From positions 1 to 64,000 of the forward strand of contig JAEINO010000012.1 in NCBI GenBank assembly GCA_016342345.1: a stretch of DNA of 64,000 nt, read 5' to 3'. Under the pieces are notes generated by a model. That model had not been told where the DNA came from, ran no database searches, and saw nothing but the letters and a program-made list of their open reading frames with translations. The stretch is from Pseudodesulfovibrio sp. (GTDB taxonomy: Bacteria; Desulfobacterota; Desulfovibrionia; Desulfovibrionales; Desulfovibrionaceae). Shown piece after piece: positions 2,436 to 64,000 of this stretch. Each line of letters begins with the position of its first letter. Within the stretch, counting starts at the first letter, position 1. The position numbers and the translations under genes were made by a program.

Positions 2436-2512
<77 letters not shown>

Positions 2513-48590: not shown

Positions 48591-48860
48591 ATTCTCCTGT
48601 CCGAGTCTGACGTGTTTATCTGTGATTTGAGTATGACTACTATAGGCCTCTGGCCCTAGTTCGATGCTCAGGCACCCTCCCCCTCCTCATTTTTAGGAGG
48701 GCTGAAAAGTGTAGACTATGCTGCCGATGACCATATCGGGGCGTTTGTAGTAATATGTCCAGAGTCATCTAGTTGCATGATACTGAATCTCTTCGCTGTA
48801 TATGCTTCTCAATGTTGTTATATAGAGAAATGTATGTCTAGATGTGATGTGTATAGAGAG
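48591..48860. other. intergenic region with a stem-loop
   Basis: About 270 bases with no gene. A hairpin CCCTCCT/AGGAGGG at 48681-48701 could end the leftward carbamoyltransferase operon or attenuate the methyltransferase gene, although no T-run follows. Confidence 0.4.
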
Positions 48861-50717
48861 CTAATCTAGTTCAAACTGATTTCGCCAATCGTCTTTTTCG
48901 CCCCAAGCAGGTTGCTCGGTTTTGGTGAAAAGGATGTTGCCAACCACTAGATAGTCCATTTCAGTACGCATGAAGCAGGCGTATGCGTCCATGGGGGTGC
49001 AAACGATGGGTTCGCCGCGGACGTTGAAGCTAGTGTTGACCACTAGGCCGCAATCGTGGTCGCGGTTGAAGGCGTTGATCAGTCCCCAATAGCGGGGATT
49101 GGTCTCTTTGCTCACAGACTGGATGCGGGCGGAATTGTCGACGTGAGTAACTGCCGGGATGGTGGAGCGTTGCACGTACAAGCGCTCGTACATATTCATG
49201 GAATCATATCCTTCCGGCAGGGGAGAACATTGATCCTCGGCAACCGGGGCCACGATGAGCATGTATGGAGATGGGCGGTCGAGGTCAAACCATGTGTCGA
49301 TTTCTTCTTCCATGACGGAAGGGGCGAACGGCCTGAATCCTTCGCGGTATTTAATTTTCAGATTGAGTTTTTTCTGCATCTCCGGGTGACGAGGATCGCC
49401 AAGGATGGAGCGTCCGCCGAGCGCGCGTGGGCCATACTCCATACGGCCTTGGAACCAGCCGATGGCATTGCCCTTGCCCAGAAGCTCTGCGACCTCGGTG
49501 TACATGTTTTCTAGGTCATCGTGCTTCTCGTAGGGGGCAGAGTAGCGCCGCACTACCTGCATGGTGTCGGTTTCGCTGAATTCAGGGCCGAGGTAAGATC
49601 CACGCATGGAATCCGGGGTCTGGACAGTGCGTTCTTTACCTTGCCAGATATGGCGTGCGGCCAGAGCGGCGCCGAGTGCCCCGCCAGCATCGCCTGCTGC
49701 GGGTTGAATCCAGATATCTTTGAAGGTGCCACGACGAAGTAGCTTGCCGTTGGCCACGCAGTTGAGGGCAACTCCGCCTGCCATGACCAGATTCTCACAG
49801 CCGGTCAATTCACGGGCGGTTTCGGCCAGAGTGAAGACTATCTCTTCGGTGACCTGCTGGATAGCCAGAGCCAAGTCCATATACTCTTGGGAAATTTCGC
49901 TTTCAGGTTTCCGGGTCGGGATACCGAACAGTTTCTCCCATTTGGGAGAATTGCACATTGTCAGGCCTGTGGCATAGCTGAAGTAGTCCATTTGCAGCAG
50001 AAGGGAACCATCTTCGCGGACATCAATGAGGTCGGAGTAAATAGCCTCTTTCCATTTTTCGACACGAGGGGAAGTTGGATTACCGTAGGGTGCCAGCCCC
50101 ATGAGCTTGTATTCGCCGGAGTTGACCCGGAACCCACAGAAGGCAGTAAAGGCGGAGTAGAGAAGGCCCAGAGAATGAGGGAAATGGAGTTCCTTGATAA
50201 CGGTGATGTCTTTGCCAACGCCCTTGCCGATTGTGGTCGTCGCCCATTCGCCAACGCCATCTACTGTCAGGATGGCTGCTTCCTCGAAGGGGGATGGGTA
50301 AAATGCGCTGGCGGCATGAGAGAGGTGGTGCTCGGGGAAGAGTAGTTTGGGTTTGCCTTCTCCGAGTCTGGCAAGCTCGTCGTTCAGCATTTTACGCATG
50401 AACAGTTTTTCTTTGATCCATACCGGGATGGAGGAAAGGAAGCTGGCTAACCCTTTGGGTGCAAACCCATTATATGTTTCCAGCAAACGCTCGAATTTGA
50501 GGTACGGCTTGTCATAGAAAGCTACCGCCGTTAGGTCGGAGAGCGACAAGCCGCCTTCTTGCAGCACATACTTGGCTGCATTGTGAGGGAAGCCCGCATC
50601 ATGCTTTTTACGAGTAAACCGTTCTTCTTGGGCAGCCGCAATAATCTCACCGTCCATGAGGAGAACGGCGGCTGAATCGTGGTAGAATGCCGAGATGCCA
50701 AGAATTGTATCAGCCAT
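48861..50717 (-). CDS. carbamoyltransferase (NodU/CmcH/TobZ family)
   Basis: 618 residues. The N-terminal Kae1-like domain has LGISAFYHDSAAVL, the metal-site HHLSHAASAFYPS and TVDGVGEWATT. The C-terminal domain has GRMEYGPRALGGRSILGDPR and VNTSFNVRGEPIV, the full set of the family. It carbamoylates a hydroxyl, probably on a sugar, using carbamoyl phosphate and ATP. It is the third gene of an SxtJ-DUF5989-carbamoyltransferase operon. Confidence 0.93.
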   Translation of the reverse strand: MADTILGISAFYHDSAAVLLMDGEIIAAAQEERFTRKKHDAGFPHNAAKYVLQEGGLSLSDLTAVAFYDKPYLKFERLLETYNGFAPKGLASFLSSIPVWIKEKLFMRKMLNDELARLGEGKPKLLFPEHHLSHAASAFYPSPFEEAAILTVDGVGEWATTTIGKGVGKDITVIKELHFPHSLGLLYSAFTAFCGFRVNSGEYKLMGLAPYGNPTSPRVEKWKEAIYSDLIDVREDGSLLLQMDYFSYATGLTMCNSPKWEKLFGIPTRKPESEISQEYMDLALAIQQVTEEIVFTLAETARELTGCENLVMAGGVALNCVANGKLLRRGTFKDIWIQPAAGDAGGALGAALAARHIWQGKERTVQTPDSMRGSYLGPEFSETDTMQVVRRYSAPYEKHDDLENMYTEVAELLGKGNAIGWFQGRMEYGPRALGGRSILGDPRHPEMQKKLNLKIKYREGFRPFAPSVMEEEIDTWFDLDRPSPYMLIVAPVAEDQCSPLPEGYDSMNMYERLYVQRSTIPAVTHVDNSARIQSVSKETNPRYWGLINAFNRDHDCGLVVNTSFNVRGEPIVCTPMDAYACFMRTEMDYLVVGNILFTKTEQPAWGEKDDWRNQFELD

Positions 50718-50725
50718 GGATTACC

Positions 50726-50875
50726 CTAGAAAATGGTGTAAATGAATGGAGCAATGGCCGAGCCGCCCGTTAACACAATCAGTGCGCCGAATAAGAGTAA
50801 TGCCAGAATGATGGGCAGCAGCCAGAATTTTTTACGGACTTTAAGAAAGCCCAAAAGATCTTTGAGAAAATCCAC
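50726..50875 (-). CDS. DUF5989 family small membrane protein
   Basis: A 49-residue gene with GTG start and AGGAG six bases upstream. The product is a short amphipathic start (DFLKDLLGFLKVRKKFW) then one transmembrane helix (LLPIILALLLFGALIVL). This size, pattern and position between carbamoyltransferase and SxtJ-like genes are typical of DUF5989. It probably acts as a membrane subunit or anchor of the modification complex. Confidence 0.8.
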   Translation of the reverse strand: MDFLKDLLGFLKVRKKFWLLPIILALLLFGALIVLTGGSAIAPFIYTIF

Positions 50876-50884
50876 AATTGTCTC

Positions 50885-51298
50885 CTAGAAAGGTAGTTCT
50901 ATTTCTTCTGGTGTGTATGTGTGGTCGCGGGTTTCGAAAACTGATCCGTTTCCTTTTTTCCACTTTTTCAAAGCCATGGGATCATGTCCGAGGGCCCGTC
51001 TAAGTAAAGCCAGCGGTGTCAATATGATAAAGAATACCAGAGTCAGAATGATCTTGGACATGACAGTGCCAAGCAAATGAGAAAACCCAAGCCATGCCTT
51101 GGCAGGCAGGGTGTATATTGCTGGCCATGTCATGTTTATGACCAACAGAATGATGGCTCCCAGAAACCAGTCGCGTGTGCCGGAAAACCAGCCTGCTAAA
51201 AGGCATATGAGTACCATGGCCATACCGGTATCGCTGCATTCTTTTGGTGAGATGCTTTTGGGAAAGAATTTAGTTAGTTCGTATTTCTTTGAGGCCAT
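50885..51298 (-). CDS. SxtJ family membrane protein
   Basis: 137 residues with three hydrophobic segments (around MAMVLICLLAGWFSG, FLGAIILLVINMTWPAIY and IILTLVFFIILTPLALL). The tail is GHDPMALKKWKKG and ends in acidic residues. SxtJ-like proteins accompany NodU-type carbamoyltransferases; their role is unknown. It is the first gene of the operon. Confidence 0.8.
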   Translation of the reverse strand: MASKKYELTKFFPKSISPKECSDTGMAMVLICLLAGWFSGTRDWFLGAIILLVINMTWPAIYTLPAKAWLGFSHLLGTVMSKIILTLVFFIILTPLALLRRALGHDPMALKKWKKGNGSVFETRDHTYTPEEIELPF

Positions 51299-51315
51299 AA
51301 TATTTAGTCCTTAAC

Positions 51316-51346
51316 ATTATAATATACCCTTCGCGGTTGATGCCAA
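51316..51346 (-). promoter_or_regulatory. sigma70-like promoter of the carbamoyltransferase operon
   Basis: On the minus strand TTGGCA (51341-51346) is followed after 16 bases by TATTAT (51319-51324), with an overlapping TATAAT at 51316-51321. The SxtJ start codon lies about 20 bases downstream. Confidence 0.5.
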
Positions 51347-51417
51347 ATATTTTGTGAATAAGCAAGAACGACAAGATTAGCTTAGTGCATGCTCTGATGC
51401 GTAATATGGCTACTTCT

Positions 51418-51781
51418 TCGTGGCTCGCCCGTGGCTCCACCTGTGTTAAACGTGTTTTTTGTGTCATTGGTGGCATTCTTAACCTCCTGAAATCATGTAG
51501 GTAAGCGACTTCCCGGTTGTTCTTGTCTATTCTGTCACCCGGGAGGTCCTTCTGATAAAAAGAGTCAAAATATCAGCATGTTACACAAGCGTCTTCCCCC
51601 TGTGTGTCCGCTTTAGGGCTTAATGGATGCACATTCTCATTCGATTTAGAGGTTGGGAACGATAAGTTGTTGCGCAGAGAGCCTCCGGCGTAACAACTGT
51701 GCAATAAGTTGAGTATTGCTTCTGCGCTGGATGGAAAACGTTCAGAATCTCGATGGCGTTCTTTTTGATTCGATAAGGGAC
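51418..51781. repeat. ~360-bp dispersed repeat R, copy 1
   Basis: Starts TCGTGGCTCGCCCGTGGCTC and shares its whole length with 57760-58113 and 62334-62698 at high identity by eye, including AACGTGTTTTTTGTG, GTAAGCGACTT, CACCCGGGAGGT, GCCTCCGGCGTAACAAC and AAAACGTTCAGAATCT. In copies 1 and 3 similarity continues into the RHH gene. A minus-strand frame (VAYLHDFRRLR...QKTRLTQVEPR) remains open in all three copies. Confidence 0.9.
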
Positions 51782-51881
51782 GACATAGGGGGAGGCAATG
51801 TCTTCTCAAGTTATCACGCTTACTCGGACAGAGTCGTTGACTACAATGAGTACAATATACCTCGTAATCAAGGAGTCCATT

Positions 51882-52127
51882 ATGAGCACCGTCACAGCCC
51901 ACATACTGGAAGATGCTGCAGCGAAATTAGACGAGCTTGCCAAGGCTACAAACCGAAGTAAGTCGTTCATTGTTGCCAACGCATTGAAGCAATTCCTCGA
52001 AGAACAGGCATGGCAAGTTGCGCGAATCAACGAAAGCATTGCCCAGGCCGATGCCGGAAAATTCGCGACTGAAACTGAAATCAAGGATGAATTCGCAAAG
52101 TGGGGATTAGGCCTTGACGCTGACTGA
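51882..52127 (+). CDS. ribbon-helix-helix antitoxin (ParD/CopG-like), copy 1
   Basis: 81 residues from ATG 51882 (AAGGAG six bases upstream). The RHH core is TVTAHILEDAAAKLDELAKA followed by TNRSKSFIVANALKQFLEE. The C-terminal part (QADAGKFATETEIKDEFAKW) would wrap the toxin. The matching toxin gene downstream is truncated. A near-identical copy lies at 62800-63045. Confidence 0.88.
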   Translation: MSTVTAHILEDAAAKLDELAKATNRSKSFIVANALKQFLEEQAWQVARINESIAQADAGKFATETEIKDEFAKWGLGLDAD

Positions 52128-52197
52128 TATTCGCTGGATCCCCAGTACACGCCAGAATCTGGCAGAGTTGTCAGTGACTCAAGCAATTGCTGGATAG
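52114..52197 (+). pseudogene. truncated ParE/RelE-type toxin remnant
   Basis: A 27-codon frame starting at TTG 52114, overlapping the antitoxin end as in parDE operons. It begins TLTDIRWIPSTRQNLAEL, the usual entry of ParE toxins, and stops after 27 residues instead of ~95. The toxin is presumably dead, leaving an orphan antitoxin. Confidence 0.6.
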
Positions 52198-52375
52198 TGG
52201 GCATCTAGGTCGAGTTCCTATGACGCGAGAAATCATAGCTTCTCCCTATGCCATTCCTTACCCGATCAAAGGGAGCACCGTTGATATTTTGAATGTGTTT
52301 CACTCCGCACAGAAACGGTAATAAACAGAAGAAAGATTGAACGCTTCATCTTTGAGGCAGAACACGCTCTGCCCT

Positions 52376-53551
52376 CTACACGACATGCTCACCAGGAATA
52401 TCCAGTCCCATATCCATAATCCGGATGTATTCACTATAGGCATATACCCGGTTGCGCTTTCTGCCGCTGACCTCCTTTACGATCCCGATTAGTTCCAAAT
52501 TGCGCAGAGAGCTGTTAACTGTCGCATGCGTCTTGCCCGTAGCTTCCACCAAACTGGTCGGAGTGGTAATCGGTTGTGCCAGTAAAACATTATGAATAGC
52601 CTTAGCGGTCTTCTTTGCTTTGCCTAGGCCTTCGATAATTGCTTCATCCTTCGCGACCATCGTCTGGAGTTCTTTGGCCGTCAAAACCGCCTGGTCAGCA
52701 GTCCGCACAACTGCTTCGGCAAAGAACGCCAACCACGTTTCCCAGTCCCCATTCCGTCTTACCATGTCCAGCATGTCATAATATTGCTGGCGGTAAGTTT
52801 TAAAGTACAGACTGAGATACAAGGAGGGCTGCTTCAAAAGACCTTCGGCGCATAGAATCAAAGTGATCATCAATCGGCCAAGTCGACCATTGCCATCAAG
52901 GTGAGGATGAATCGTCTCAAACTGCAAATGCGCCAAAGCTGCTTTCAGGAGCGGCGGGATACCATCGTTATGGAGGAACTTTTCCAGATCGCCCATGAGC
53001 TCCATCAATTGATTGTGCGGCGGCGGGATGAAGATGGCATTACCGGGCCGAGTCCCGCCAACCCAATTCTGAGCCCGTCGATACTCGCCTGGAGCTTTAT
53101 CCTTGCCACGGCCACTTCGAAGCAATATCTCATGCATCTCTTTGAGCAGACGCAAACTCAGTGGAAAATCATCTTCCTGCATGCGCTTCAACCCATGATT
53201 CAAAGCAGCAATATAGTTGCTGACCTCGGCCACATCCTCTTGAGGCACAGGGACAGCCTCCCCCACTTCGTGTGTCAGCAAGTCAGACAACGAAGACTGG
53301 GTTCCTTCAATCTGAGAGGAGAGCACTGCTTCCTTACGTACATACATGTACAGAAACAGATGTGTATTCGGAACGATCTCATTGATAGCATTCAGTTCGC
53401 CCAAAGACAGGTGAGCTTGATCAAAGAGTTTCTGCAAATCGCTCCTCCACTCCACCTCTGGCTCCGGCGGTAATTGGTATGGGATATATGCTTCAACTCG
53501 CTCGTCCTTGACGCTAACGACCTCGGTTCGTCCTGTTTTCTTTCTTAACAT
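52376..53551 (-). CDS. Fic family protein (AMPylase-type) with C-terminal winged helix
   Basis: 391 residues. Fic core HPHLDGNGRLGR (215-226) keeps the catalytic His and the GNGR anion hole, but the usual HPF has His for Phe. An inhibitory helix precedes it (SSQIEG, Ser78-Glu82-Gly83), the intramolecular class. The final ~90 residues are a winged helix (PTSLVEATGKTHATVNSSLR). It would transfer AMP (or another nucleotide part) to a protein hydroxyl. Its start follows a set of TTATTTTAGG operator-like sites. The 3' and 5' parts are duplicated at 63077-63368. Confidence 0.9.
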   Translation of the reverse strand: MLRKKTGRTEVVSVKDERVEAYIPYQLPPEPEVEWRSDLQKLFDQAHLSLGELNAINEIVPNTHLFLYMYVRKEAVLSSQIEGTQSSLSDLLTHEVGEAVPVPQEDVAEVSNYIAALNHGLKRMQEDDFPLSLRLLKEMHEILLRSGRGKDKAPGEYRRAQNWVGGTRPGNAIFIPPPHNQLMELMGDLEKFLHNDGIPPLLKAALAHLQFETIHPHLDGNGRLGRLMITLILCAEGLLKQPSLYLSLYFKTYRQQYYDMLDMVRRNGDWETWLAFFAEAVVRTADQAVLTAKELQTMVAKDEAIIEGLGKAKKTAKAIHNVLLAQPITTPTSLVEATGKTHATVNSSLRNLELIGIVKEVSGRKRNRVYAYSEYIRIMDMGLDIPGEHVV

Positions 53552-53562
53552 AAGACTTCTTT

Positions 53563-53613
53563 TTATTTTAGGATAAAGGATTAAACTAAAATAACGAACT
53601 TTCTTATTTTAGG
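53563..53613. promoter_or_regulatory. operator-like half-sites upstream of fic (copy 1)
   Basis: TTATTTTAGG at 53563-53572, its complement CTAAAATAA at 53586-53594, and TTATTTTAGG at 53604-53613 lie just before the fic start (53551). The arrangement matches the better-preserved palindrome at 63396-63436. Autoregulation by the C-terminal winged helix of Fic is an inference. Confidence 0.6.
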
Positions 53614-53800
53614 CAAATGAGAAACTGAAATAGAATCAACTCATCTCACTATACTCTGTTTTGAAAACGGTTGATAGCCGCTTGGCGAAACATTTAAGCG
53701 CATCCTATAAGCACGTGGTCCGATTCTCGGGGCGAAGCGCACGTTGAATTGGCGTACACATTTTTGTATTTTCTTCTTCCCCTCAGGCGAAATGAAGATC

Positions 53801-54679
53801 TTAGCCCTCGGAAGATTTTAGTAAGATGGTGCTTAATTCTCCGACGCGAAGCTTGGCAAAATTCCAGAATCCAGGGTTCATGATCGTTTGTTGGACGATG
53901 TCCCCTGGAAGGAATCGACGCATCTCATTCTTGAAGGCTTGGGCTACATCGCCAGAGTCCATCTCCTTGAGTCTTTCGCTCAGAGCGTCCTTGAATTCAT
54001 CCGTAGACCCTTTTGCTTCTGCTTTGCGAAGAAGCGTATCTGTTGGCAGTTCAACTCCCTTGTTTGTGAGCCAGATGATGTCCCAAACATCGCGTCCCTT
54101 GATTCTGTTGGGCCGTAGAGCGAAGGCGAGGATTTTGTCGGCAAGGATTTCACTCAGGGACTCTGTGTTGAGAATCAATCCGCTTGTACCCAGATCAACG
54201 CCATAATGGTTTCTGAGCATCATCGGCTGAATGTCGAAGGAGGGCATGTCGCATATATCCACATGTATCTTCTGCTTAGGTGCCGCACGATTCTGCGGTT
54301 CAATTTCCAGACTGAACTTCCATGTGACAACATCGTCGCCTTCCTTGCTGATTTTGGGAGGCTTCACCGAAACCGGGATTCCGAATCGACCCTGAAGAAG
54401 TTCGGGCATACGGGACACAAGAGGTTCGAAGTCGCTTCCATGCAAGGGCTTGGTCGTGGTGAAGTCGAGATCTTCACTGAGGCGATCAGCTCCATAGCAT
54501 GCTCTGAGGCAAGTCCCTCCTATGAATACCATGTGCTGAAGCAGTCCAAGGTTTCTCATTTGGAGGAGAATCTCGTGGTGAAGGATTTCTTTCACCAGTG
54601 TTTCGCGTAGGGTGGTCAGGTGAGGCGCGTTCCGTGCCGCCTCAGCGGTGATCATTTGTAGCATGTTCATTGTTTTCAT
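53801..54679 (-). CDS. AbiEii/AbiGii-type nucleotidyltransferase toxin
   Basis: 292 residues of the type IV toxin class. GGTCLRACYGADRLSEDLDF (52-71) is the nucleotidyltransferase motif with its two Asp residues; ILADKILAFALRPNRIKGRD contains the conserved Lys and Arg of motifs III-IV. It overlaps the antitoxin gene upstream by 4 bases. In AbiE systems this protein modifies tRNA or acts as an NTase and gives phage resistance by halting growth. Confidence 0.9.
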   Translation of the reverse strand: MKTMNMLQMITAEAARNAPHLTTLRETLVKEILHHEILLQMRNLGLLQHMVFIGGTCLRACYGADRLSEDLDFTTTKPLHGSDFEPLVSRMPELLQGRFGIPVSVKPPKISKEGDDVVTWKFSLEIEPQNRAAPKQKIHVDICDMPSFDIQPMMLRNHYGVDLGTSGLILNTESLSEILADKILAFALRPNRIKGRDVWDIIWLTNKGVELPTDTLLRKAEAKGSTDEFKDALSERLKEMDSGDVAQAFKNEMRRFLPGDIVQQTIMNPGFWNFAKLRVGELSTILLKSSEG

Positions 54680-55209
54680 CCCTCCTGAATAAGATCAAGC
54701 GAAGCTGACCGGCTCCGTTGCAGGTCCGCTTTTGCAAGTGCTGGCGACGCTATCCATAGCCGTCTTTCTTTGTCGTATGCCAACTCGTCGGCATACGATT
54801 CAAGAGCTCGCTTGGTATGGATAAATTCGATGGTGCCGAACTTGCCACACGATAATGTTGCGCTACGCCCTGTTGAAATGATGCCGATCCAGCTGAATGG
54901 GGCCTGGGAGATGATGCCTGTTTCACTTAAGACACTTTCAAGGCTGAGGTAGTTTATATGTTTGGGGCGCAGAATCGAGACAACGTGGTAAAGTAGCAAG
55001 TGTGATGGATAGTCCACGAATGGATAAAGGTAGATCCCTCGGCAGACCCTTTCAAGTTCTCCACTTCGTACAAGTCGGTGCAATAATACCTTGAGAGCAG
55101 CTTTTGTAAGATCAGGTACAAGAGGCATGAGATCGGCCAAAGCGTAAAGATAGCTTTCGGGACTCGCAAGTCGTCGAAGCTCACGGATAATAGTTCTTGA
55201 TGGTTGCAC
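54676..55209 (-). CDS. AbiEi-type antitoxin (winged-helix) protein
   Basis: 177 residues from GTG 55209 with GAGAG upstream. The N-terminal helix-turn-helix (YLYALADLMPLVPDLTKAAL) then SGELERVCRGIYLYPFVDYP is the AbiEi pattern. The C-terminal domain (GIISTGRSATLSCGKFGTIE) completes it. It would repress its own operon and neutralise the NTase. Confidence 0.85.
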   Translation of the reverse strand: MQPSRTIIRELRRLASPESYLYALADLMPLVPDLTKAALKVLLHRLVRSGELERVCRGIYLYPFVDYPSHLLLYHVVSILRPKHINYLSLESVLSETGIISQAPFSWIGIISTGRSATLSCGKFGTIEFIHTKRALESYADELAYDKERRLWIASPALAKADLQRSRSASLDLIQEG

Positions 55210-55471
55210 AAGTGCTCTCTTGGTTACAGTTTAAGTAACCTTTCGAACACCTGTCGTCAAGAGGGTGATCTGATGCTAGTTGCGAGGCATTTTGAAAAGT
55301 GATGAGACGAGTGTTTGAAAACGTGTGGCAGGAATATTTCGATTCTTCCTGACATTTTATCTTGAAAAAGAGGGGGAGATTCGCCAATATTTGTGTCCCG
55401 TTGGTTATAAGATCTTAGTCTGGTATTATTCAAACACGTCCAACTCGGTATGAAAGAAAGAGTGTGTAATC

Positions 55472-55825
55472 ATGGCAATCAGTGAATTTGAATTTCATCG
55501 TTACGAAAAAATTATGCAAGAGTTCTGCAAGACGCAAGGGCCGCCGCCAGAATTTCACGACAAGCTGAAATGGGGTTTTACGCTTGATCCCAAGAATCAG
55601 AGCGTTGTCCTGCTCGAAATTCGTCCACGATTCAGGGGGCCCTCCAAGAAAGTCGAGATACCTATCGCCAAGGCGCGGTTCATCAAAGCCCGGAAACAAT
55701 GGAAAGTATACTGGATGCGGGGGAACGGAAAGTGGCTTCTTTACGAACCATGCCCATCAACGCGGACCATTGAAGAGTTCCTGGGCGTGGTCAAAGAGGA
55801 TTCCCATTGCTGTTTCTTCGGCTAA
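55472..55825 (+). CDS. DUF3024 family protein
   Basis: 117 residues. The segments IRPRFRGPSKKVEIPIAKAR, KQWKVYWMRGNGKW and the end EDSHCCFFG are those of DUF3024, an uncharacterised small family often found beside defence or mobile genes. It stands alone between the AbiEi and HipA genes, with a plausible ribosome site (GAAAGAG). Confidence 0.82.
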   Translation: MAISEFEFHRYEKIMQEFCKTQGPPPEFHDKLKWGFTLDPKNQSVVLLEIRPRFRGPSKKVEIPIAKARFIKARKQWKVYWMRGNGKWLLYEPCPSTRTIEEFLGVVKEDSHCCFFG

Positions 55826-55832
55826 GCTCATT

Positions 55833-57086
55833 CTATGGCCGAGATGAAAGTACTGAGGCTATTTCATTTACCTGTTTTCGGGGAACGCGGTTCTTGTTAG
55901 CAAATTCGCTCCACCTATCCACTGAGGATATCACCATGTCTACGCATTTTGCCATTGTAGATTTGGAAATTCCAACAGCCGTTCCCACTTTCTGAATGTC
56001 TGCCAATGTCGGAGCATTCCCTTCGCCAGCTATGTCGAGGGTGTGCTCTCCGCCGGGGCCATCGGAAAACATGACATCATAAGCGGGGGAGAGTCGCCAT
56101 TCCCCTTTGTGGTCCATGAGAAAACTATGGTTCTTTGTGTGGTCGTCTCTGTTGTGGGCGTACACATTGAAAACCATCCTTGTGAACATTTGTTCGACAT
56201 CGGGTTGTTGCCGCGTAAGGGCCTGTGTAGCTTTGAGAAGTTCTTCATATCCTATGCTGGGCAGTCTGAAGTCAGCATGGAGCAAGCCGCAAATTGTATG
56301 CATGTGAATGCGACGATTGCCTTCACGGTCAAACCGTTTAATCCCAAAATAGCCAGGTCCGTTGTTGGAAGGAAGAATTTTGGTGTCCGGCATGATAACT
56401 CCGGCAACACGTGCCATATCAGCGTATGCCTGTTCTATGAGCCCGGTTTCGGGGGTGTCGTTTTGAGTCCCGAATTTGACCAGCCAATGTTCATATCTTT
56501 CAGGTAAATTTTCTTCACCATGAATAATGGATGACCCATCAGATGCGAGCCCGATAAGGGCTTTGGGGCGAGCTCCGGCCGGAGAACCACCAACTTGCAG
56601 GAGGTAATCAAAGACGGCTTCAGGGCTGTCTTCCAGAACAATGCGTGAAGCTTCTGCGATCTCATCAAGGTCAATTTGTGCCTGATTGCTGTTTTTAGCT
56701 AAATCAGAATGTTCAGGGTGGTAACACAGCGCCCCCATTCCCTTGGAACCAATCCATGCCAGCCTGTCCAAGGGAGTCAGTTGGCTTGGTCGTATGCCCA
56801 GATCGCGGAGTTTGCGGTCCATCAAAAGTCGTCCCCAGCCGTCTGGGAGGCTGTCATTGAAAACACCATGCAGCCCTTCGAAGTGCTTTTCTGGTCCTTC
56901 TATTATGCTTGAGCCAGGAGTGGAGTGAAGAAGAAAAGGCGAGATGTCGAAAGTGTCGATTGGAAAATCAGGATCGAATTCAAATACGATCTTTCGTTCT
57001 ACATACGCCAGCCGCCCCACGCGGATAGGTGCATCAAGGTCCAGTTTTACGGTTAGCAGACGGATCGGCTCAAATTTACTGCTCAT
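55833..57086 (-). CDS. hipA: HipA family toxin kinase (type II TA)
   Basis: 417 residues. N-terminal HipA domain with FNDSLPDGWGRLLMDRKL. The kinase region has GGSPAGARPKAL (P-loop-like), YFGIKRFDREGN, the catalytic RDDHTKN (in HNRDDHTKNHSF) and LSPAYDV (metal Asp). It would phosphorylate a glutamyl-tRNA synthetase-type target and induce dormancy. Coupled to its HTH partner by a 4-base overlap. Not closely similar to the HipA at 60820. Confidence 0.9.
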   Translation of the reverse strand: MSSKFEPIRLLTVKLDLDAPIRVGRLAYVERKIVFEFDPDFPIDTFDISPFLLHSTPGSSIIEGPEKHFEGLHGVFNDSLPDGWGRLLMDRKLRDLGIRPSQLTPLDRLAWIGSKGMGALCYHPEHSDLAKNSNQAQIDLDEIAEASRIVLEDSPEAVFDYLLQVGGSPAGARPKALIGLASDGSSIIHGEENLPERYEHWLVKFGTQNDTPETGLIEQAYADMARVAGVIMPDTKILPSNNGPGYFGIKRFDREGNRRIHMHTICGLLHADFRLPSIGYEELLKATQALTRQQPDVEQMFTRMVFNVYAHNRDDHTKNHSFLMDHKGEWRLSPAYDVMFSDGPGGEHTLDIAGEGNAPTLADIQKVGTAVGISKSTMAKCVDMVISSVDRWSEFANKNRVPRKQVNEIASVLSSRP

Positions 57087-57385
57087 GATTTACGTCCGCG
57101 TTGGCGTTGTGAAATTTTGGACTGGTCAAGCAAAGTGTCCAGCGAAGCACTCGGTTTGGGTTGAAACAACGCACCGATTTCGTCTTCTAGACGTAATGCA
57201 AAGGCGAGCCGGATGAGGTTTTTCAAAGATATTTCCCCTTCCCCCTCAAATCTTTTGAGACTGCCCAGACTGACTCCTGCACGTAAGGCGAGTCCCTGCT
57301 GTGTGAAATTGGCCGTTAAGCGGGCGCTTTTCACTCTTTGGGCTACTTTTATTTGTATGTCTTCTGGGGATAATATATTAACCAC
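57083..57385 (-). CDS. hipB: HipB-like XRE antitoxin
   Basis: 100 residues with an XRE helix-turn-helix (NFTQQGLALRAGVSLGSLKR) and a basic C-terminus that would reach the toxin. It precedes hipA in the same operon and should repress it. The upstream region runs into the 57446 hipB fragment of the opposite strand. Confidence 0.85.
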   Translation of the reverse strand: MVNILSPEDIQIKVAQRVKSARLTANFTQQGLALRAGVSLGSLKRFEGEGEISLKNLIRLAFALRLEDEIGALFQPKPSASLDTLLDQSKISQRQRGRKS

Positions 57386-57445
57386 TAGTGCCTCTTTCTT
57401 TTAAGAGTGTTTAATATGTTGTCTTTAGTTCGTCAAGAGACGTGT

Positions 57446-57560
57446 TGCTCTTGGCTTGGGTCTAGAGTGGATGGGATTGGCTGACATATCTGAAGACAAG
57501 GTGGGACAGGCCTTGGATGAAGAGCGCATTCTGCGTCGCGCCAGAGATATAAAGGCATAG
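57446..57560 (+). pseudogene. 3' fragment of a second-type hipB
   Basis: This fragment is nearly identical to the last ~38 codons of the hipB gene at 60501-60809 (LEWMGLADISEDKVGQALDE). The 5' part and the hipA gene expected after it are absent. The sequence continues with that found after the intact hipA at ~62155 (TTATTTCATGTCG), so hipA was deleted here. Confidence 0.88.
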
Positions 57561-57759
57561 GAGGCCGTTGTGCTTATTTCATGTCGCAAAAGGCCGTGGC
57601 TTCATTGCTGTTGCTATTTGTTTTCGGCAGGTTTTTGGTATCGGTTGATTGGGAATGTATTCACGGAAAATTGGGAAAGTTGCTTTAGAAAATCGGAAAA
57701 GTATTGCCGGATGTAATCGTTTTTACATTGTCCAGTTTGGCTGTTCTTCTATCAAATTT

Positions 57760-58113
57760 TCGTGGCTCGTTCGTGGCTCCACCTGTGTTAAACGTGTTTT
57801 TTGTGCTATCTGTGCCACTCTTAACCACCTGAAATGACGTAGGTAAGCGACTTTTCGGTTGTTCTTATTGGTCCTGTCACCCGGGAGGTCTTTTCGATAA
57901 AAAGAGTCAAAATATAAGCATGTTACATAAGCGCCTTCCCTCTGTGTGTCCGTTTTAGGGCTTAATGGATGCACATTCTCACTCGATTTAGAGGTTGGGA
58001 ACGATAGGTTGCTGCGCAGAGAGCCTCCGGCGTAACAACGGTGCGATAAGTTGAGTCTTGTTTCTGATCTGGATGGAAAACGTTCAGAATCTCAATGGCG
58101 TTCTCGTTGATTG
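57760..58113. repeat. ~360-bp dispersed repeat R, copy 2
   Basis: Second copy of the repeat described at 51418. It lies after the hipB fragment and ends against aminotransferase relic sequence, not the RHH gene. Similarity is lost at about TTCTCGTTGATTGGG. Confidence 0.9.
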
Positions 58114-58121
58114 GGCATGTC

Positions 58122-58258
58122 CTATCCAGCAATAACCTCTGCGATAGTCTTCAGCTCTTCAGCCTTCAGGTACGGGTGCGTTGGCAGGCTGAAGATCCTC
58201 TCCGCGATTCCTTCACAAATGGGAAGTCGTCAACTTTATGGCCGAGATTAAAAATGGG
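58122..58258 (-). pseudogene. C-terminal relic of a DegT/DnrJ/EryC1-type aminotransferase
   Basis: The minus strand reads IFNLGHKVDDFP then, after a one-base shift, ICEGIAERIFSLPTHPYL and KAEELKTIAEVIAG plus stop. This is the conserved tail of PLP-dependent sugar aminotransferases of the DegT family (AERIFSLPTHPYL). No active-site part remains. Confidence 0.65.
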
Positions 58259-58283
58259 TAGTTTGTGGGATCACACTTTATCA

Positions 58284-58455
58284 TTACTCGCACCACAGGC
58301 TAGATAAAGGTACGGCATACATTTTGTCGCCAAAGGGCAGTGTTTCTTCGCCGTCATAGAGGATGAAACCATGCAATCATGGTTTCCGCGCATGAGTTGG
58401 CTAATTTGCGGAGTCCCTTGAAATCTCCCGTTGAAGCCTTCGCCAAAATATGAGC
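58284..58455 (-). pseudogene. C-terminal relic of an AAA ATPase with DUF4143-type tail
   Basis: The minus strand reads KASTGDFKGLRKLANS followed, after a frameshift, by GFILYDGEETLPFGDKMYAV and PLSSLW plus stop. This matches the end of the widespread archaeal/bacterial ATPase family with a DUF4143 C-terminus. It is cut by the transposase gene that starts at 58450. Confidence 0.6.
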
Positions 58456-59328
58456 TGCGGCCGAAGGCGCGAAGTTGTCGACAACGGGCACCCAAATCTC
58501 AGCGTCCGGCGACAATGCAAAGTTCTGCAATTACAAAGATCGACATACTATTATAAGCCCATCGGCGAGTCTTCGCTCAATCTGGAGTTGATGCGAAAGA
58601 TCGATGAGTTGTTTATGGAGCTGCCGTTTTTCGGTTCTCGGCAGATGCGGAATATTCTGCGCGATACGGGATATTCTGTTGGTCGAGAGCGGGTGAGAAG
58701 GCTGATGCGCAAGATGGGTTTGATGGCGGTTTATCAGAAGCCGCGAACGAGCCAACCATATCCCGGGCACAAGGTGTATCCATATCTGCTTCGGAATCTG
58801 CCGATTACAAAACCAAACCAAGTTTGGTGCACGGATATTACGTATATCCCCATGAAACGCGGTTTTCTGTACCTTGTGGCGGTCATGGACTGGCACAGTC
58901 GCGCAGTCTTATCTTGGCGTCTATCGAACACGATGGATACGGATTTCTGCGTGGCAGCATTGGAAGAGGCCATAAATCGCTATGGAGCTCCAAAAATATT
59001 CAACACAGATCAAGGCTCACAGTTTACCAGTTACGAGTTCACAAAGACTCTCAGAGATGCCGGCATACGCATTTCAATGGACGGTCGTGGTCGTTGGATG
59101 GATAACGTCATGATCGAACGGCTATGGCGTTCCCTGAAATATGAATGTGTATATTTGCGTGAGTTGAGTACAGGAAGTGAACTGCGTGAGGCATTGGTTT
59201 GGTGGTTTGATTTCTACAATAATCGTCGGCCTCATTTCACTTTTGACGGAATGAAGCCGATGGATGTATATCAAAGCTCCAAGCCAGAGGGGGTACCCCC
59301 TCTGGCTTGGAACCAAAAGGCGGCGTAA
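58450..59328 (+). CDS. IS3-family transposase OrfB
   Basis: 292 residues. The integrase core has the DDE triad in WCTDITYIP, FNTDQGSQFT and MIERLWRSLKYE, plus the YNNRRPH motif near the end. The N-terminus (HPNLSVRRQCKVLQL) is the normal start of IS3 OrfB. No OrfA is present upstream; there the sequence is ATPase relic, so the element is 5'-truncated and not autonomous. Confidence 0.9.
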   Translation: MSCGRRREVVDNGHPNLSVRRQCKVLQLQRSTYYYKPIGESSLNLELMRKIDELFMELPFFGSRQMRNILRDTGYSVGRERVRRLMRKMGLMAVYQKPRTSQPYPGHKVYPYLLRNLPITKPNQVWCTDITYIPMKRGFLYLVAVMDWHSRAVLSWRLSNTMDTDFCVAALEEAINRYGAPKIFNTDQGSQFTSYEFTKTLRDAGIRISMDGRGRWMDNVMIERLWRSLKYECVYLRELSTGSELREALVWWFDFYNNRRPHFTFDGMKPMDVYQSSKPEGVPPLAWNQKAA

Positions 59329-59359
59329 CCCGTAAACTTGTCCACCTTAAATTCGCCGC

Positions 59360-60300
59360 TCAGTGGTCCGAAGAACCGGGGCCACCTCTGTCCTCTTTAT
59401 TTCGACATCGGTAAACTACGCTTCTAGCGCCATGAACAAGTAGCTTTCTAAGGTAGTTGTTGCCTCGTTTGCTAATTCCCATCAGCCTATCTTTCCCTCC
59501 TGAAGAGTGTTGACGAGGAGTCAACCCTACCCATGCGGCAAGTTGTCTACCATTTTTGAAGGCATGAGCATCTCCAATAGCAGAAATGAGGGCGGTTGAT
59601 GTCAACAAGCCAATGCCTGGTATCGTCAGAAGTTTTTGGCATTCTGCAGATTGGCCACACAGAGTTTGTAATTGTTTTTCATATTTCAAAATTTTGCCAT
59701 CCAAATCGACTAAATCATTATAAAGATTAGAAAGATAATCTCGTTCGATTAATGTTAAACGATTTGCCAAATCTTTATAAATCTCAGGCAATAAGTTGCG
59801 TATTTTTGCCAATCCCTGTGGAATTGAAATTCCAGCCTCCAGCAGCAGTCCTCTGGTCTGGTTAGACAGGCTTGTCCTGCTGCGAACCAAGCGTTCTCTG
59901 ATACGATGTAAAGCCTGAAGGTTGAGCTGCTCTTCACTCTTGGCGGGCACAAATCGCATGTTTGGTCTGGTCACAGCCTCACAAACCGCTTCAGCATCAT
60001 TTGCATCGTTTTTTGTTGGTCTTGACGTAAGGCTTTACGTATTGAGGGGGCATTTGACGGACCTCATGACCTAACTTCTCCAATTCTCGGGCCCAAAAAT
60101 GAGAACCACAACAGGCTTCAATGCCGATGAGACAAGTCCTCAGATTTGCAAAAAATGGTAGAACATTGCGCTGACTGAGTCGCTTCCTCAAAACGGTGTT
60201 GCCTTTACTGTTTATTCCGTGAAGTTGAAAAACGTTTTTTGCCAGATCACCTTTTAGCTCGGCAAAAAGCGAGACTTTGATGCTCTGCTTAGAGGTATGA
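59360..60300 (-). pseudogene. IS110-family transposase, frameshifted and 3'-truncated
   Basis: The N-terminal part (DLAKNVFQLHG, IGIEACCGSHFWARELEKLG) is DEDD-type, with the C-terminal Transposase_20 domain (TIPGIGLLTSTALISAIGDA, GGKDRLMGISKRGN) in another frame. The two join if one base is removed from the run TTTTTT at 60009-60014 (A6 on the coding strand; NKNDANDAEAVCEAV results). The C-terminus is cut off after YRCRNKED. GGGGCCAC near 59383 and GTGGCCCC near 60322 form possible ends. Confidence 0.85.
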
Positions 60301-60427
60301 ATTACGCGGTATCGTGTGGCAGTGGCCCCAAATTAGTAATAACAGATAGGTACGCTTACTATTTCGTATGTTTACCGGAGTCGCCAACAGTTGAATCCGA
60401 CACCATGCTCTCATTTATTATCTCATC

Positions 60428-60456
60428 TTGACTCAATTTGTATTTATGACTATTAT
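60428..60456 (+). promoter_or_regulatory. sigma70 promoter of hipBA with operator
   Basis: TTGACT (60428-60433) and TATTAT (60451-60456) with a 17-base spacer. An imperfect inverted repeat (arms 60426-60437 and 60469-60480, TCTTGACTCAAT/ATTGAGTTGAGA) overlaps the -35 box and the transcript start, a plausible HipB operator. Confidence 0.7.
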
Positions 60457-60500
60457 TCTTGGCATGAGATTGAGTTGAGACAACTATTTTGGGCATAATT

Positions 60501-60809
60501 ATGAAAAAGAATCTACCTATCTCTGTCCGTAGCGGGCTGAAAAAGCTCGGCGAGTCTTTGAAAAAAGCAAGGCTCCGGCGACGGTTAAAAATGGTAACTG
60601 TTGCAGATCGAGCTGGTCTCAGCCGTGAAACTTTGGCAAAAATCCAAAAAGGCGATCCAGGGGTGAGCATAGGGAACTATGCCGCCGTCATCTTTGCTCT
60701 TGGATTGGGTATAGAGTGGATGGGATTGGCTGACATATCTGAAGACAAGGTGGGACAGGCCTTGGATGAAGAGCGCGTTCCGCGTCGCGCTAGAGATGTA
60801 AAGGCATAG
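60501..60809 (+). CDS. hipB: HipB-like XRE antitoxin
   Basis: 102 residues from ATG 60501 (an upstream TTG at 60489 is also in frame). The HTH is TVADRAGLSRETLAKIQKG, then VSIGNYAAVIFALGLG. It represses the hipBA promoter and binds the HipA that starts 10 bases after its stop. Its 3' third is duplicated at 57446. Confidence 0.88.
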   Translation: MKKNLPISVRSGLKKLGESLKKARLRRRLKMVTVADRAGLSRETLAKIQKGDPGVSIGNYAAVIFALGLGIEWMGLADISEDKVGQALDEERVPRRARDVKA

Positions 60810-60819
60810 GGGGGGCGCT

Positions 60820-62088
60820 GTGGGTAAACAAATATATGTATATGTTGACCTCCAGGGAGAGGTTTATCTTGTCGGTACATTGTGGGTACATGCCAACAAT
60901 GCCGGAGAGAGTGCGTCTTTTGAATATGCTCCAGAGTGGAGAAGATCCCCATCCAAATTTTCTCTTGAGCCAGCACTTGAGCTTGGTGAAGGATCTTTTC
61001 ACACAGACGCGGGCAAGTCTCTATTCGGTTCTATTGGCGACTCAGCGCCTGACAGATGGGGCCGTGTACTCATGAAACGCCGTGAGGCTCGTACTGCAAA
61101 GGCAGAAGATCGCAATCCTCGGCTCATTCACGATTCTGACTATTTGTTGATGGTCAACGACTTCTCCAGACAGGGAGCACTGCGTTTTGCGGCAACGAAA
61201 GATGGTCCTTTTTTGGCCACGGCCGCTGACGAAAGCATCCCTCCTGTAGTAGATTTAGGACGCCTTCTGAATGCCTCTGAAAGAATCCAGGCTCGCCAGG
61301 AACTGGATCAGGACATCAAGGACCTCGTTGATCCAGGTGCCTCTCTGGGGGGAGCACGGCCGAAGGCTTCTGTTATTGATACGAATGGCGATCTTCTTAT
61401 TGCGAAGTTTCCTAGCCGGAATGACGATTGGGACGTGGAATTATGGGAGTATTTATCTTTCAAAATGGCAGAACGTGCGGGTATTCCAACGCCTACCACT
61501 CGCTTGGAAAAAGTTAACGATAAAAATGTGCTTATCCTCAATCGTTTTGACCGCCGAGAAAAGGAAGTTCGTATCCCATTCCTGTCAGCTATGAGTATGC
61601 TTGGTTATTCTGATGGAGACCACGGCAGCTATTTGGAATTGTCAGATATTTTGGCCCAGTATGGAGCTGAAACGACATTGGATCAAAAAGATTTGTGGCG
61701 TAGGGTGGTGTTCAACATCATGATTTCTAATGTTGATGACCACCTTCGAAATCACGGTTTTCTGTACGAAGGCTCCGCAGGGTGGCGGCTCTCGCCTATC
61801 TATGATCTTGAGCCAACGCCGACACACGAGAAGCCGAGAGTGCTGCATACATATATAGACTTGTACGATGGCACAGCTTCTTTAGATGTTGCGTACAGTG
61901 TGGCTGATGAGTTTGGCCTCGATTTGGATGAGTCACGTAAGATTGCTAAAAAGGTGGCAGAAGCAACAAGGAACTGGGCCAGCGAGGCCGCTCGTCTTGG
62001 GGCGAGCAAGGCTGACATCGAAACTATGAGTTCTGCATTCGACCATGATGATCTGAAGCAAGGGCTCAAGGCCAAAGTGGTCAAATAA
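60820..62088 (+). CDS. hipA: HipA family toxin kinase
   Basis: 422 residues from GTG 60820 with a G-rich ribosome site. DSAPDRWGRVLMKRRE, the GASLGGARPKASV loop, LILNRFDRREKE, the catalytic SNVDDHLRNHGFL and LSPIYDLEP are all present, so the kinase looks intact. It forms the second HipBA pair of the island. Confidence 0.92.
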   Translation: MGKQIYVYVDLQGEVYLVGTLWVHANNAGESASFEYAPEWRRSPSKFSLEPALELGEGSFHTDAGKSLFGSIGDSAPDRWGRVLMKRREARTAKAEDRNPRLIHDSDYLLMVNDFSRQGALRFAATKDGPFLATAADESIPPVVDLGRLLNASERIQARQELDQDIKDLVDPGASLGGARPKASVIDTNGDLLIAKFPSRNDDWDVELWEYLSFKMAERAGIPTPTTRLEKVNDKNVLILNRFDRREKEVRIPFLSAMSMLGYSDGDHGSYLELSDILAQYGAETTLDQKDLWRRVVFNIMISNVDDHLRNHGFLYEGSAGWRLSPIYDLEPTPTHEKPRVLHTYIDLYDGTASLDVAYSVADEFGLDLDESRKIAKKVAEATRNWASEAARLGASKADIETMSSAFDHDDLKQGLKAKVVK

Positions 62089-62154
62089 GCTCCTGCCCCT
62101 GATCTTTTTGACGGACTGCAATTGTCATATTAAGTCCGAAATCCTACGTTTTAG

Positions 62155-62333
62155 TCGTTGTGTTTATTTCATGTCGAAAAAGGCGATGGCTTTCCTCGCT
62201 GCTGCGACTTGATCTCGGCTGATTGGGAATATGTTCACTGCTAATTGGGAACGTTGATGTGGCTGATTGGGAATATGTAAGCCGAGTGCTTTCGATTTTA
62301 GTATGTTCTGAGTTGCTATTTTTCACCAATTTT
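62155..62333. repeat. downstream segment of hipBA with three ~22-bp tandem repeats
   Basis: ATTGGGAA recurs three times at 22-23-base spacing (about 62222, 62244 and 62266). The same region is found, more decayed, at about 57575-57710 after the hipB fragment. Confidence 0.7.
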
Positions 62334-62698
62334 TCGTGGCTCATCCGTGGCTCCACCCATGTCAAACGTGTTTTTTGTGTCATTGGTGGTGTTCTTAACC
62401 GACTGAAATGACCTAGGTAAGCGACTTTCCGGTTGTTCTTATTGGTCTTATTACCCGGGAGGTACTTCCTATAAAAAAGAGTCAAAATATTAGTATGTTA
62501 CATAATCGCCTTTCCCCTGTGTGTCCGCTTTAGCGGTTTAACGGATGCACACTTCCACTCGATTTAGAGGTAGGGAGCACCGCTTTGCTATGCAGAGAGC
62601 CTCCGGCGTAACAACGGTGCAATAAATTTAGTACTGCTTCTGCGCTGAATGAAAACGTTCAGAATCTTGATGACGTTCTTTTTGATTCGGTAAGGGAT
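62334..62698. repeat. ~360-bp dispersed repeat R, copy 3
   Basis: Third copy of the repeat, located after the intact hipBA pair and before the second RHH antitoxin. Similarity with copy 1 continues beyond its end through the antitoxin and the fic relic. Confidence 0.9.
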
Positions 62699-62799
62699 GA
62701 ATAGCGCAAGGCAATGGCGTCTCAAGCGCTCGTGCTCATTGGGACAGAGTCGTTGACTACAATGTGCACAGTATCTATTTCGTAATTGAGGAGTCTATT

Positions 62800-63045
62800 A
62801 TGAGCACCGTCACAGCCCGTATTCCGGAAAATGTCGCAGCGAAATTAAACGAGTTTGCCAAGGCTACAAATCGAAGCAAGTCATTTATTGTTGCCAAGGC
62901 ATTGGAGCAGTTCTTCGAAGAGCAGGCATGGCAAGTTGCGCGGATCAACAAAAGCATTGCCCAGGCCGATGCTGGAGAATTCGCGACTGAAGCTGAAATC
63001 AAGGAAGAATTCGCAAAGTGGGGATTAGGCCTTGATGCTGACTAA
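62800..63045 (+). CDS. ribbon-helix-helix antitoxin (ParD/CopG-like), copy 2
   Basis: 81 residues from ATG 62800 (GAGGAG upstream). The protein is nearly identical to the one at 51882, with substitutions such as ARIPENVAAKLNEF for AHILEDAAAKLDEL. It has the RHH core and the same C-terminus ending GLGLDAD. It is an orphan antitoxin because its toxin is cut short. Confidence 0.88.
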   Translation: MSTVTARIPENVAAKLNEFAKATNRSKSFIVAKALEQFFEEQAWQVARINKSIAQADAGEFATEAEIKEEFAKWGLGLDAD

Positions 63046-63072
63046 TATTCGCTGGACCTCTAGCGCACGCTC
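63032..63072 (+). pseudogene. start of a ParE/RelE-type toxin, cut after ~14 codons
   Basis: The frame starts TTGATGCTGACT as in copy 1 and reads LTNIRWTSSAR. It then runs into the reverse complement of the fic 3' end. The join lies within ACGCTCTGC, a motif also found at 52363 in copy 1, indicating deletion by short homology. Confidence 0.7.
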
Positions 63073-63076
63073 TGCG

Positions 63077-63368
63077 CTACACGACAAGCTTACCAGGGAT
63101 ATCCAGTCCCATATCCATAATCCGGATGTATTCACTATAGGCATATACCCGGTTGCGCTTTCTGCCGCTGACCTCCTTTACGATCCCGACTCGTTCCAAA
63201 TTGCGCAGAGAGTTGTTCACTGTCGCATGTGTCTTGCCTGTAGCTTCCACCAGACTGGCCGGAGTGGCAATCGGTTGTGCCAGTAAATCATTGTGAATAG
63301 CCTTGGCGGTCTTCTTTGTTTTGCCTAGGCCTTCGATAATTGCTTCATCCTATTTTCTTTCTTAGCAT
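63077..63368 (-). pseudogene. fic gene with internal deletion (copy 2)
   Basis: This copy retains the first ~6 codons (MLRKK) and the last ~90 codons of the Fic gene at 52376-53551. About 885 bases including the HPHLDGNGR motif are missing; the join is at TCCT/TCCTG-type microhomology near 63350. The remaining 3' part encodes only the winged helix, and the frame stops soon after the start. Confidence 0.9.
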
Positions 63369-63379
63369 AAAGGTTCTTT

Positions 63380-63436
63380 TTATTTTAGGATGAGGCATTC
63401 GCCTAAAATAACGAATTTCTTTATTTTAGGCGAATG
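63380..63436. promoter_or_regulatory. perfect 16-bp inverted repeat, fic operator candidate (copy 2)
   Basis: Arms 63396-63411 (CATTCGCCTAAAATAA) and 63421-63436 are exact reverse complements with a 9-base spacer. A third TTATTTTAGG half-site lies at 63380-63389. The palindrome is better preserved than the copy at 53586-53613. Confidence 0.75.
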
Positions 63437-63733
63437 AGAAACTGAAATATAATCACCTCATCTCACTTACTCGTTTTGAAAAAGGTTGATAGCCGCTTGA
63501 CGAAACAGTCAAGCTTATCACCCAAGCAAGAAGTCAGATTTTCATGGTGAAGCGCATGCTTAATAATGCGCCTAAGAAATGGGGTCATTTCGTTGGACCA
63601 CTGGCGTAACCGAATGTGGCAGGATCATGCTAAAAGTAGGATGAGATAGTGGTGCTGCTCGTAGATGTTTTCCCTAGGATGGCCTGGAAGGCTCGCTTCA
63701 GAAGTAATTTGAAAAAGTATCGCAGACTCCGAC
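63437..63733. other. intergenic region
   Basis: The first ~60 bases repeat the region upstream of fic copy 1 (GGTTGATAGCCGCTTG). The rest, to 63733, holds no gene that I can support. Confidence 0.5.
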
Positions 63734-64000
63734 CTATTCTTCTGCCAAAACAGCGTGTGCTATAAATTTGGCAAAAGGTTGGATGTCGTTGCTCACGCTC
63801 GCTGATTCTAGGGCGGCCATATACTTGTTACGATTATCAACCTTGATCGTTGTCCAGGGATAGCCTCCCGACGAAAGCATCAGATTCATCAAAAACTTAG
63901 CCATGCGCCCATTGCCATCGGCATATGGGTGGATATAGCCCAACATCCAATGCCCAAGGATAGCCGACACGATGGGGGAGTCTTCGCTTTCAAGGCGATC
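63734..64000 (-). CDS. Fic family protein, C-terminal part (gene runs off the window)
   Basis: 88 visible residues. HPYADGNGRMAKFLMN is the Fic catalytic motif, with the family's His, Asp, Asn and Arg. It differs from the Fic at 52376 (HPHLDGNGR) and is a third Fic-related sequence in the island. The frame is open to the window edge, so the start lies outside. Confidence 0.85.
   Translation of the reverse strand, partial: DRLESEDSPIVSAILGHWMLGYIHPYADGNGRMAKFLMNLMLSSGGYPWTTIKVDNRNKYMAALESASVSNDIQPFAKFIAHAVLAEE

Follow-up and report, generated by a model that had tools for sequence, protein, structure and literature searches.

Units of toxin-antitoxin and defence genes between attR-type repeats, probably accreted in tandem at a tRNA-Asp gene of Pseudodesulfovibrio

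Integron cassette arrays consist of head-to-tail gene units with recombination sites between them. Four papers describe systems closer to the one reported here. In Dehalococcoides, tandem islands follow a single RNA gene, whose 3' part is copied at the boundary of each island, and 15 ssrA-specific islands without an integration module were suggested to be possible cis-mobilizable elements (PMC3146451). Such cis-mobilizable elements (CIMEs) arise by decay and tandem accretion; they are units that have no recombinase of their own, are flanked by attachment sites and lie in a stack with an element that carries an integrase (review, PMC5704250). The Shewanella islands GI21 and CGI48 carry an integrase at attL, a hipA-hipB pair at attR and restriction genes between them, and in GI21 the hipAB genes beside attR were shown to stabilise the island (PMC8978831). 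In Islander, 2083 of 3919 islands have an anticodon-centred attP; a tandem is called only if each island has its own integrase, and the table holds four tandems of at least three islands (PMC4383910). Here we analyse the window, a 64,000-nucleotide stretch of a Pseudodesulfovibrio sp. genome (assembly GCA_016342345.1, contig JAEINO010000012.1, positions 1 to 64,000), in which three repeats of about 360 bp, R1 to R3, separate groups of toxin-antitoxin (TA) and defence genes. R1 to R3 are probably attR-type sites of an integrase encoded beside a tRNA-Asp gene, and the array probably grew by tandem accretion of islands at that gene, with some old segmental duplication.

The array consists of one attL followed by four attR-type sites (R1 to R4), with three units of 6.3, 4.6 and 5.9 kb between the latter. 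It shares head-to-tail units with integron arrays, whereas its sites are long, anchored in a tRNA gene and laid out with 113 bp between arms and core, which is a different kind of site. Stacked RNA-gene islands, including members without an integration module, are already known, and the present array is a further case. Dehalococcoides combines a serine recombinase, the tmRNA gene, crossover in the T-loop and rdhA cargo (PMC3146451), in contrast to the tyrosine integrase, tRNA-Asp, anticodon loop and TA and defence cargo found here. CIMEs by definition retain attL and attR (PMC5704250), whereas both ends of each unit here are attR-type and the cores of R1 to R3 are decayed; in the account that we favour, the units are island remains that resemble cis-mobilizable elements, of putative mobility. 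Relatives of GI21 use yicC and CGI48 lies in tRNA-Trp (PMC8978831), whereas this array has tandem hipB(A) ends, hipA being lost in two of three. By analogy with GI21, hipBA may have a stabilising role at the present locus. The anticodon-centred site is common to this locus and Islander's anticodon-subsite islands (PMC4383910). Among literature titles we found none on this locus, which is a weak negative.

The sequence-only reading had described R1 to R3 as same-orientation copies, which holds: all three, at 51418-51781, 57760-58112 and 62334-62697, are on the same strand, with likeness far above chance. Over the common length, identity to R1 is 89% for R2 (E 8e-132) and 84% for R3 (E 5e-108); overall, the flank copies are 79-89% alike. 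That reading had also held that no transposase of their own explains the repeats. There is indeed no transposase in them, but a tyrosine integrase 48 kb to the left, beside tRNA-Asp, had been overlooked, and it is relevant because the repeats match the arms of its attachment site. R1 to R4 each open with a CGTGGCTC-N3-CGTGGCTC pair, and the distance from this pair to CTGTCAC, the tRNA-Asp anticodon loop, is exactly 113 bp in the copies, the loop being degenerate in R3. The attL spans 2468-2600, with the four attR-type sites to its right. On the 76-kb contig that contains the window (C62), CGTGGCTC occurs 13 times on the plus strand and never on the minus strand, and ten of the 13 make up the five pairs.

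R4, a fourth and partial copy just right of the window (C62:68244-68372), continues into the 3' part of tRNA-Asp and four bases beyond (50 of 50 identical, C62:68357-68406), after which a terminator-like hairpin follows, as judged by eye. The locus therefore looks like a tRNA-integrated island, with an intact tRNA at one end and a displaced 3' fragment in the same orientation at the other, a tyrosine integrase gene adjoining the tRNA, and predicted arm-type sites common to both sides of the core. The integrase presumably binds the CGTGGCTC arms. Across R1 to R4, 16 of 16 arm positions are invariant compared to 67 of 97 in the remainder of the 113 bp (Fisher p 0.005, for a comparison picked post hoc), and the 113-bp spacing is free of indels while neighbouring DNA has gained them. 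Because the arms are unchanged and the spacing has no indel, the sequences suggest that the sites were kept in use for some time after multiplying.

The 360 bp are the stretch that three copies have in common, not a free-standing element. Each is composed of the arm pair, the 113 bp to the anticodon loop and then Q, the left end that the units share, made up of about 165 bp of unassigned DNA plus a reversed 3' end of a parE-type gene. The parE relic is weaker in R2 (tblastn E 8e-4) and R3 (E 2e-3) than in R1. Homology between R1 and R3 exceeds the repeat on the right, pairing 51414-52152 with 62330-63070 (84.5%) across the RHH gene and into fic, while that of R2 stops at about 58112, ahead of insertion sequence (IS) DNA. 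To the left, R2 homology extends into the hipB ends of other units (57445-57888 with C62:67906-68372, 84%), and R2, R3 and R4 have hipB-derived DNA in common on this side. Elsewhere in the assembly, contigs C25 and C134 carry shorter stretches of the left part, and C135 carries such stretches of the right end. Rfam had no match to 50800-64000 at a cut-off of E 0.1, and a blastn search of phage and plasmid records with R1 likewise found none.

Table 1. Features of the tRNA-Asp locus and the repeat array (positions in the window unless marked C62).
Feature	Position	Strand	Evidence or detail
tRNA-Asp, anticodon GTC, intact, predicted integration target	2436-2512	+	ARAGORN; loop CTGTCAC at 2468-2474
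Tyrosine integrase, 377 aa, stop-codon end toward tRNA	2567-3700	-	Pfam PF00589 (Phage_integrase), E 2.5e-18
attL-side arm pair CGTGGCTC-N5-CGTGGCTC, inside integrase gene end	2580-2600	+	112 bp from anticodon loop
R1, attR-type site and Q	51418-51781	+	arms 51419-51437, loop CTGTCAC 51532-51538
parE-type toxin 3' relic, inside and just past R1 right end	51716-51814	-	tblastn with C135 ParE-like protein, E 1e-9
RHH (ParD/CopG-like) antitoxin, unit 1	51870-52127	+	Pfam RHH_1, E 8e-7
Fic protein, 391 aa	52376-53551	-	Pfam Fic_N and Fic; PADLOC SoFic, E 3e-120
AbiEii 53801-54679, AbiEi 54676-55209	53801-55209	-	Pfam, PADLOC
DUF3024 protein, PADLOC candidate PDC-S43	55472-55825	+	Pfam, PADLOC
HipA 55833-57086, HipB-like HTH protein 57083-57385	55833-57385	-	Pfam
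Lost hipB 3' end, hipA absent, right end of unit 1	57445-57564	+	alignment, 94% to 60694-60813
R2, attR-type site and Q	57760-58113	+	arms 57761-57779, loop CTGTCAC 57874-57880
IS3-type transposase 58450-59328 (+), truncated IS110-type 59360-59974 (-), unit 2	58450-59974		Pfam
hipB 60489-60809, hipA 60820-62088, right end of unit 2	60489-62088	+	Pfam
R3, attR-type site and Q	62334-62698	+	arms 62335-62353, loop position 62448-62454 degenerate (TTATTAC)
RHH gene, unit 3	62800-63045	+	Pfam RHH_1, E 5e-4, just short of cut-off
fic relic, unit 3, gene middle missing	63066-63564	-	93% to 52363-52650, 82% to 53527-53749
Second Fic protein, part; 239 aa, runs on to C62:64453	63734-64000	-	Pfam Fic, E 1e-11

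We searched 36 genomes of the genus, our own included, for the paired motif, with the reversed pattern as a control. The motif gave 27 matches in 10 of the 36 genomes and the control gave one. Fifteen matches have the 3-nt spacing of the attR type, and the loop heptamer lies 113 bp downstream in 13 of these and 112 bp in one; the degenerate R3 aligns at 113. The other 12 have the 5-nt spacing, and 10 of them sit 92-112 bp from an anticodon loop. An integrase adjoins seven of these 10 core-linked sites; at the other three, tblastn found none. In five sister species (G139, G200, G201, G207 and G216), attL-type and attR-type sites stand about 17-22 kb apart at tRNA-Glu(CTC), and the integrase beside attL is 52-53% identical to that of the window; in G139 the far-end tRNA part is degraded. 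In our own genome, contig C26 encodes a further integrase of this kind (54%), and C25 holds an attR-type site. Because the same geometry of arms and core recurs and related islands carry integrases, we conclude that one integrase family acts at anticodon loops and that the repeat, in its arm-core part, represents the attR half-site of this family. What had been an unexplained repeat becomes an exact boundary marker, CGTGGCTC-N3-CGTGGCTC, 113 bp, CTNTCAC (or the attL-side form), which flags the island ends of one integrase family in 10 of 36 genomes of the genus, decayed integrase-free islands included; the latter would escape callers that require an integrase, such as Islander.

In the accretion that we favour, the CGTGGCTC pairs would be the arm-binding sites of the integrase and the 7-base tRNA-Asp anticodon loop the crossover core. 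Elements would insert repeatedly at tRNA-Asp, each newcomer displacing older ones from the gene. The older elements would then lose their integrase, leaving three tandem units filled with TA and defence genes and bounded by attR-type sites. These units may all derive from one ancestral layout, Q-parDE-fic...hipB(A)-P.

Several observations weigh against this account. R1 to R3 lack the tRNA 3' half past about 11 core bases (by eye) and the loop of R3 is altered, so they are probably not fully functional as sites. Their common post-core DNA (about 165 bp and the parE relic) is unexpected for independent insertions and indicates at least some segmental duplication. With both Q and the decayed core common to R1 to R3, part of the copies must have arisen by segmental duplication or else from close relatives that inserted. 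Q had no blastn match, and two tblastx matches at E 0.02-0.04, in the fetched loci and arrays of relatives. In the motif search, two 5-nt matches on contig 9 of G046 have no core nearby, and the control pattern gave its one match. The motif occurs at only seven places in our own assembly, hence no excised circle was seen, and the right-hand chromosomal flank past the tRNA end matched relatives only in scattered, weak protein-level hits.

The shared DNA would fit a rival account in which an old island, ending in just one attR-type site, was multiplied several times by unequal homologous recombination; R1 to R3 would then be duplicated island ends, with the integrase uninvolved in the multiplication. 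Past the core, R1 to R3 have one non-tRNA sequence and one parE relic in common, the units have mutually paralogous hipB ends and RHH-fic blocks, and hipA was lost at the same point ahead of R2 and R4, the hipB end ahead of R3 having retained it. However, the copies have diverged by 11-21% and the cargo between them is very different. R2 and R4, whose left parts are most alike, do not lie next to each other, and arms and arm-core spacing stayed intact although adjacent DNA gained indels. We therefore regard duplication without the integrase as possible but the less probable course, and infer that units were added by site-specific accretion, not by duplication alone. Pairwise identities of P and Q, aimed at crossovers in the core, were not decisive.

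A further proposal, that the integrase keeps reshuffling recombinase-free TA units by attR x attR recombination in a slow, tRNA-anchored cassette system, strikes us as rather unlikely. It includes movement of the family between tRNA-Glu and tRNA-Asp, which could occur because the anticodon loops differ only at the first anticodon base (CTGTCAC in Asp, CTCTCAC and CTTTCAC in Glu). Judged from these loops, that single difference plausibly let one integrase family use both tRNAs, and it makes core specificity of the integrase testable with a single base.

The sequence-only reading had taken the locus for a cassette array that grows and shrinks through its long flanks. Its gene groups (RHH, Fic, AbiEi/AbiEii, two HipBA pairs, IS3- and IS110-type transposases and a fic relic) are as it named them, and the gene content between R1, R2 and R3 bears out that long repeats bracket TA and defence units. 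Growth or shrinkage by homologous recombination between repeats is possible. That TA cassettes are moved by homologous recombination between the 360-bp flanks with no site-specific step is, in our view, very unlikely: the flanks are long, 79-89% alike and enclose differing cargo, but such identity would make a poor substrate for homologous recombination, and the whole 360-bp unit does not recur outside the array. Instead, the left part of the unit is found again at other loci, sister species included, where it lies at sites that resemble island ends and have an anticodon-loop core, so this part is not confined to the present locus, and the last 60-75 bases of the unit recur at parE gene ends; the attR identity of R4 also disfavours the proposal. 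That the repeat is part of an IS or miniature element (MITE) is almost certainly wrong: unit 2 has IS3- and IS110-type transposases, unit 3 has transposase-like open reading frames (ORFs, by eye), and the RHH gene sits between two imperfect inverted copies (51720-51807 and 52227-52314, 70%), but these copies are parE remnants, 48000-64000 gave no inverted pair of at least 30 bases (12-base seeds), the transposase ORFs lie outside the repeat, the anticodon loop of a tRNA is where the recurring left part of the repeat stops, and the geometry of paired motif and core across the genus contradicts it.

Unit 0 (49 kb) carries the integrase, a DNA methylase and polysaccharide-type genes. Unit 1 (51547-57890) holds RHH, fic, AbiEii/AbiEi, DUF3024, HipAB and a hipB remnant, with a broken parE after the RHH gene (about 52114-52318); unit 2 (57890-62463) holds IS3, IS110 and hipBA; unit 3 (62463-68357) holds RHH, the fic relic, the second Fic, the transposase-like ORFs and hipB. 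IS transposases are thus among the unit genes. A hidden Markov model (HMM) built from 31 integrases of the window's kind had no match in units 1 to 3, where other recombinase families and transfer genes were covered by ORF lists and Pfam scans of selected ORFs. The TA genes presumably act as stabilisers or in defence, and the array illustrates how TA and defence genes can accumulate at a single tRNA gene.

Arrays at tRNA-Asp also occur in relatives. A query of the tRNA-Val/tRNA-Asp region matched all 36 genomes of the genus, in a few at the tRNA level only and in G213 weakly, among the matches listed; in some genomes, such as G128, G185, G204 and G215, the matches listed include no nearby extra tRNA-Asp copy. 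Fifteen relatives, one genome per species, were picked for extra tRNA-Asp 3' copies, a choice that gives no prevalence estimate. Fourteen share the DNA ahead of the tRNA at the protein level (cut by a contig end in G208), and G148 shares the tRNA region only. Between their tRNA-Asp 3' copies lie 32 units, 13 of which have any match to the HMM, nine of these full length; integrases of other families would be missed in this count. Two very short tRNA matches were left out as unit boundaries (G139, 15 bases, other strand; G200, 17 bases), and some short or diverged ones were used (such as G203, 27 bases).

The cargo of these arrays includes restriction-modification genes, Cas1 and RuvC_III/HNH_4 domains, the latter presumably Cas9-like. 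PADLOC matched 241 models at 1e-10 in array ORFs of at least 130 aa (148 of 156 scanned; eight dropped for a size limit, including the sole ORF of G104), compared to 34 in control stretches, which came from nine of these genomes (130 of 142 scanned; a random 12 left out), a comparison that is only indicative, as models overlap, ORFs were picked mechanically, and several DpdE and several ZorD models each come down to one control protein. Complete extra tRNA-Asp genes lie within the arrays of G200 (L051), G214 (L048), G178 (L050) and G192 (L058), with tRNA-Val in G178 and G192; it looks as if certain islands make a second copy of the tRNA or of both tRNAs.

The integrase matched 14 phage records, of which the 10 listed are 24-27% identical, and we rejected a close phage relative on the strength of these listed matches. 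In a collection of genome contigs, a search that may omit our own genome found one partial relative (41% in the best segment).

HipA, searched at E up to 1e-60 in 199 genomes of the family, was found in our own genome and 14 others, and in none of the 16 other genomes of the genus in that draw. None of the relatives' loci matched the spacer or P beside hipBA, so that hipBA and the att arm are not constantly paired elsewhere. C35 carries another hipA, 86% identical, which likewise has no P nearby. In addition, the G028 locus (L147) had matches to stretches of the second Fic and of the other HipA in the window.

In the window, 12000-50700, from integrase to R1, is a large polysaccharide or O-antigen-like cluster with a carbamoyltransferase, an ABC transporter and a nucleotidyltransferase (Pfam) and glycosyltransferases (by eye); such surface-sugar genes may be island cargo. 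For the tRNA-Glu island of G216, 10 of the 16 locus ORFs were read; they include the integrase, a further recombinase-like gene (Integrase_1), genes for a DNA methylase and for type I restriction, and one for a SEFIR/TIR protein. A 319-aa ORF occupies the same place in the tRNA-Glu islands of two species (L121:2689-3648 and L117:2249-3208; Pfam Integrase_1 in the L121 scan), and with the integrase it could form a two-recombinase module. On contig 9 of G046 (L127:10495-10528), three consecutive CGTGGCTC copies are joined to attL-like DNA with no tRNA core, a layout that a deletion between attR and attL arms may have left behind. Contig C135 of our own genome (G000) has an intact pair of RHH and ParE-like genes (L011:5503-6019) near tRNA-Glu(TTC) at L011:6229-6306, with the anticodon-loop-like sequence CTCTCACGCCGG about 25-30 bp past the parE stop. 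A similar parE end lies on contig C10 of G171 (L017), and other integrases may likewise have TA modules at their att junctions.

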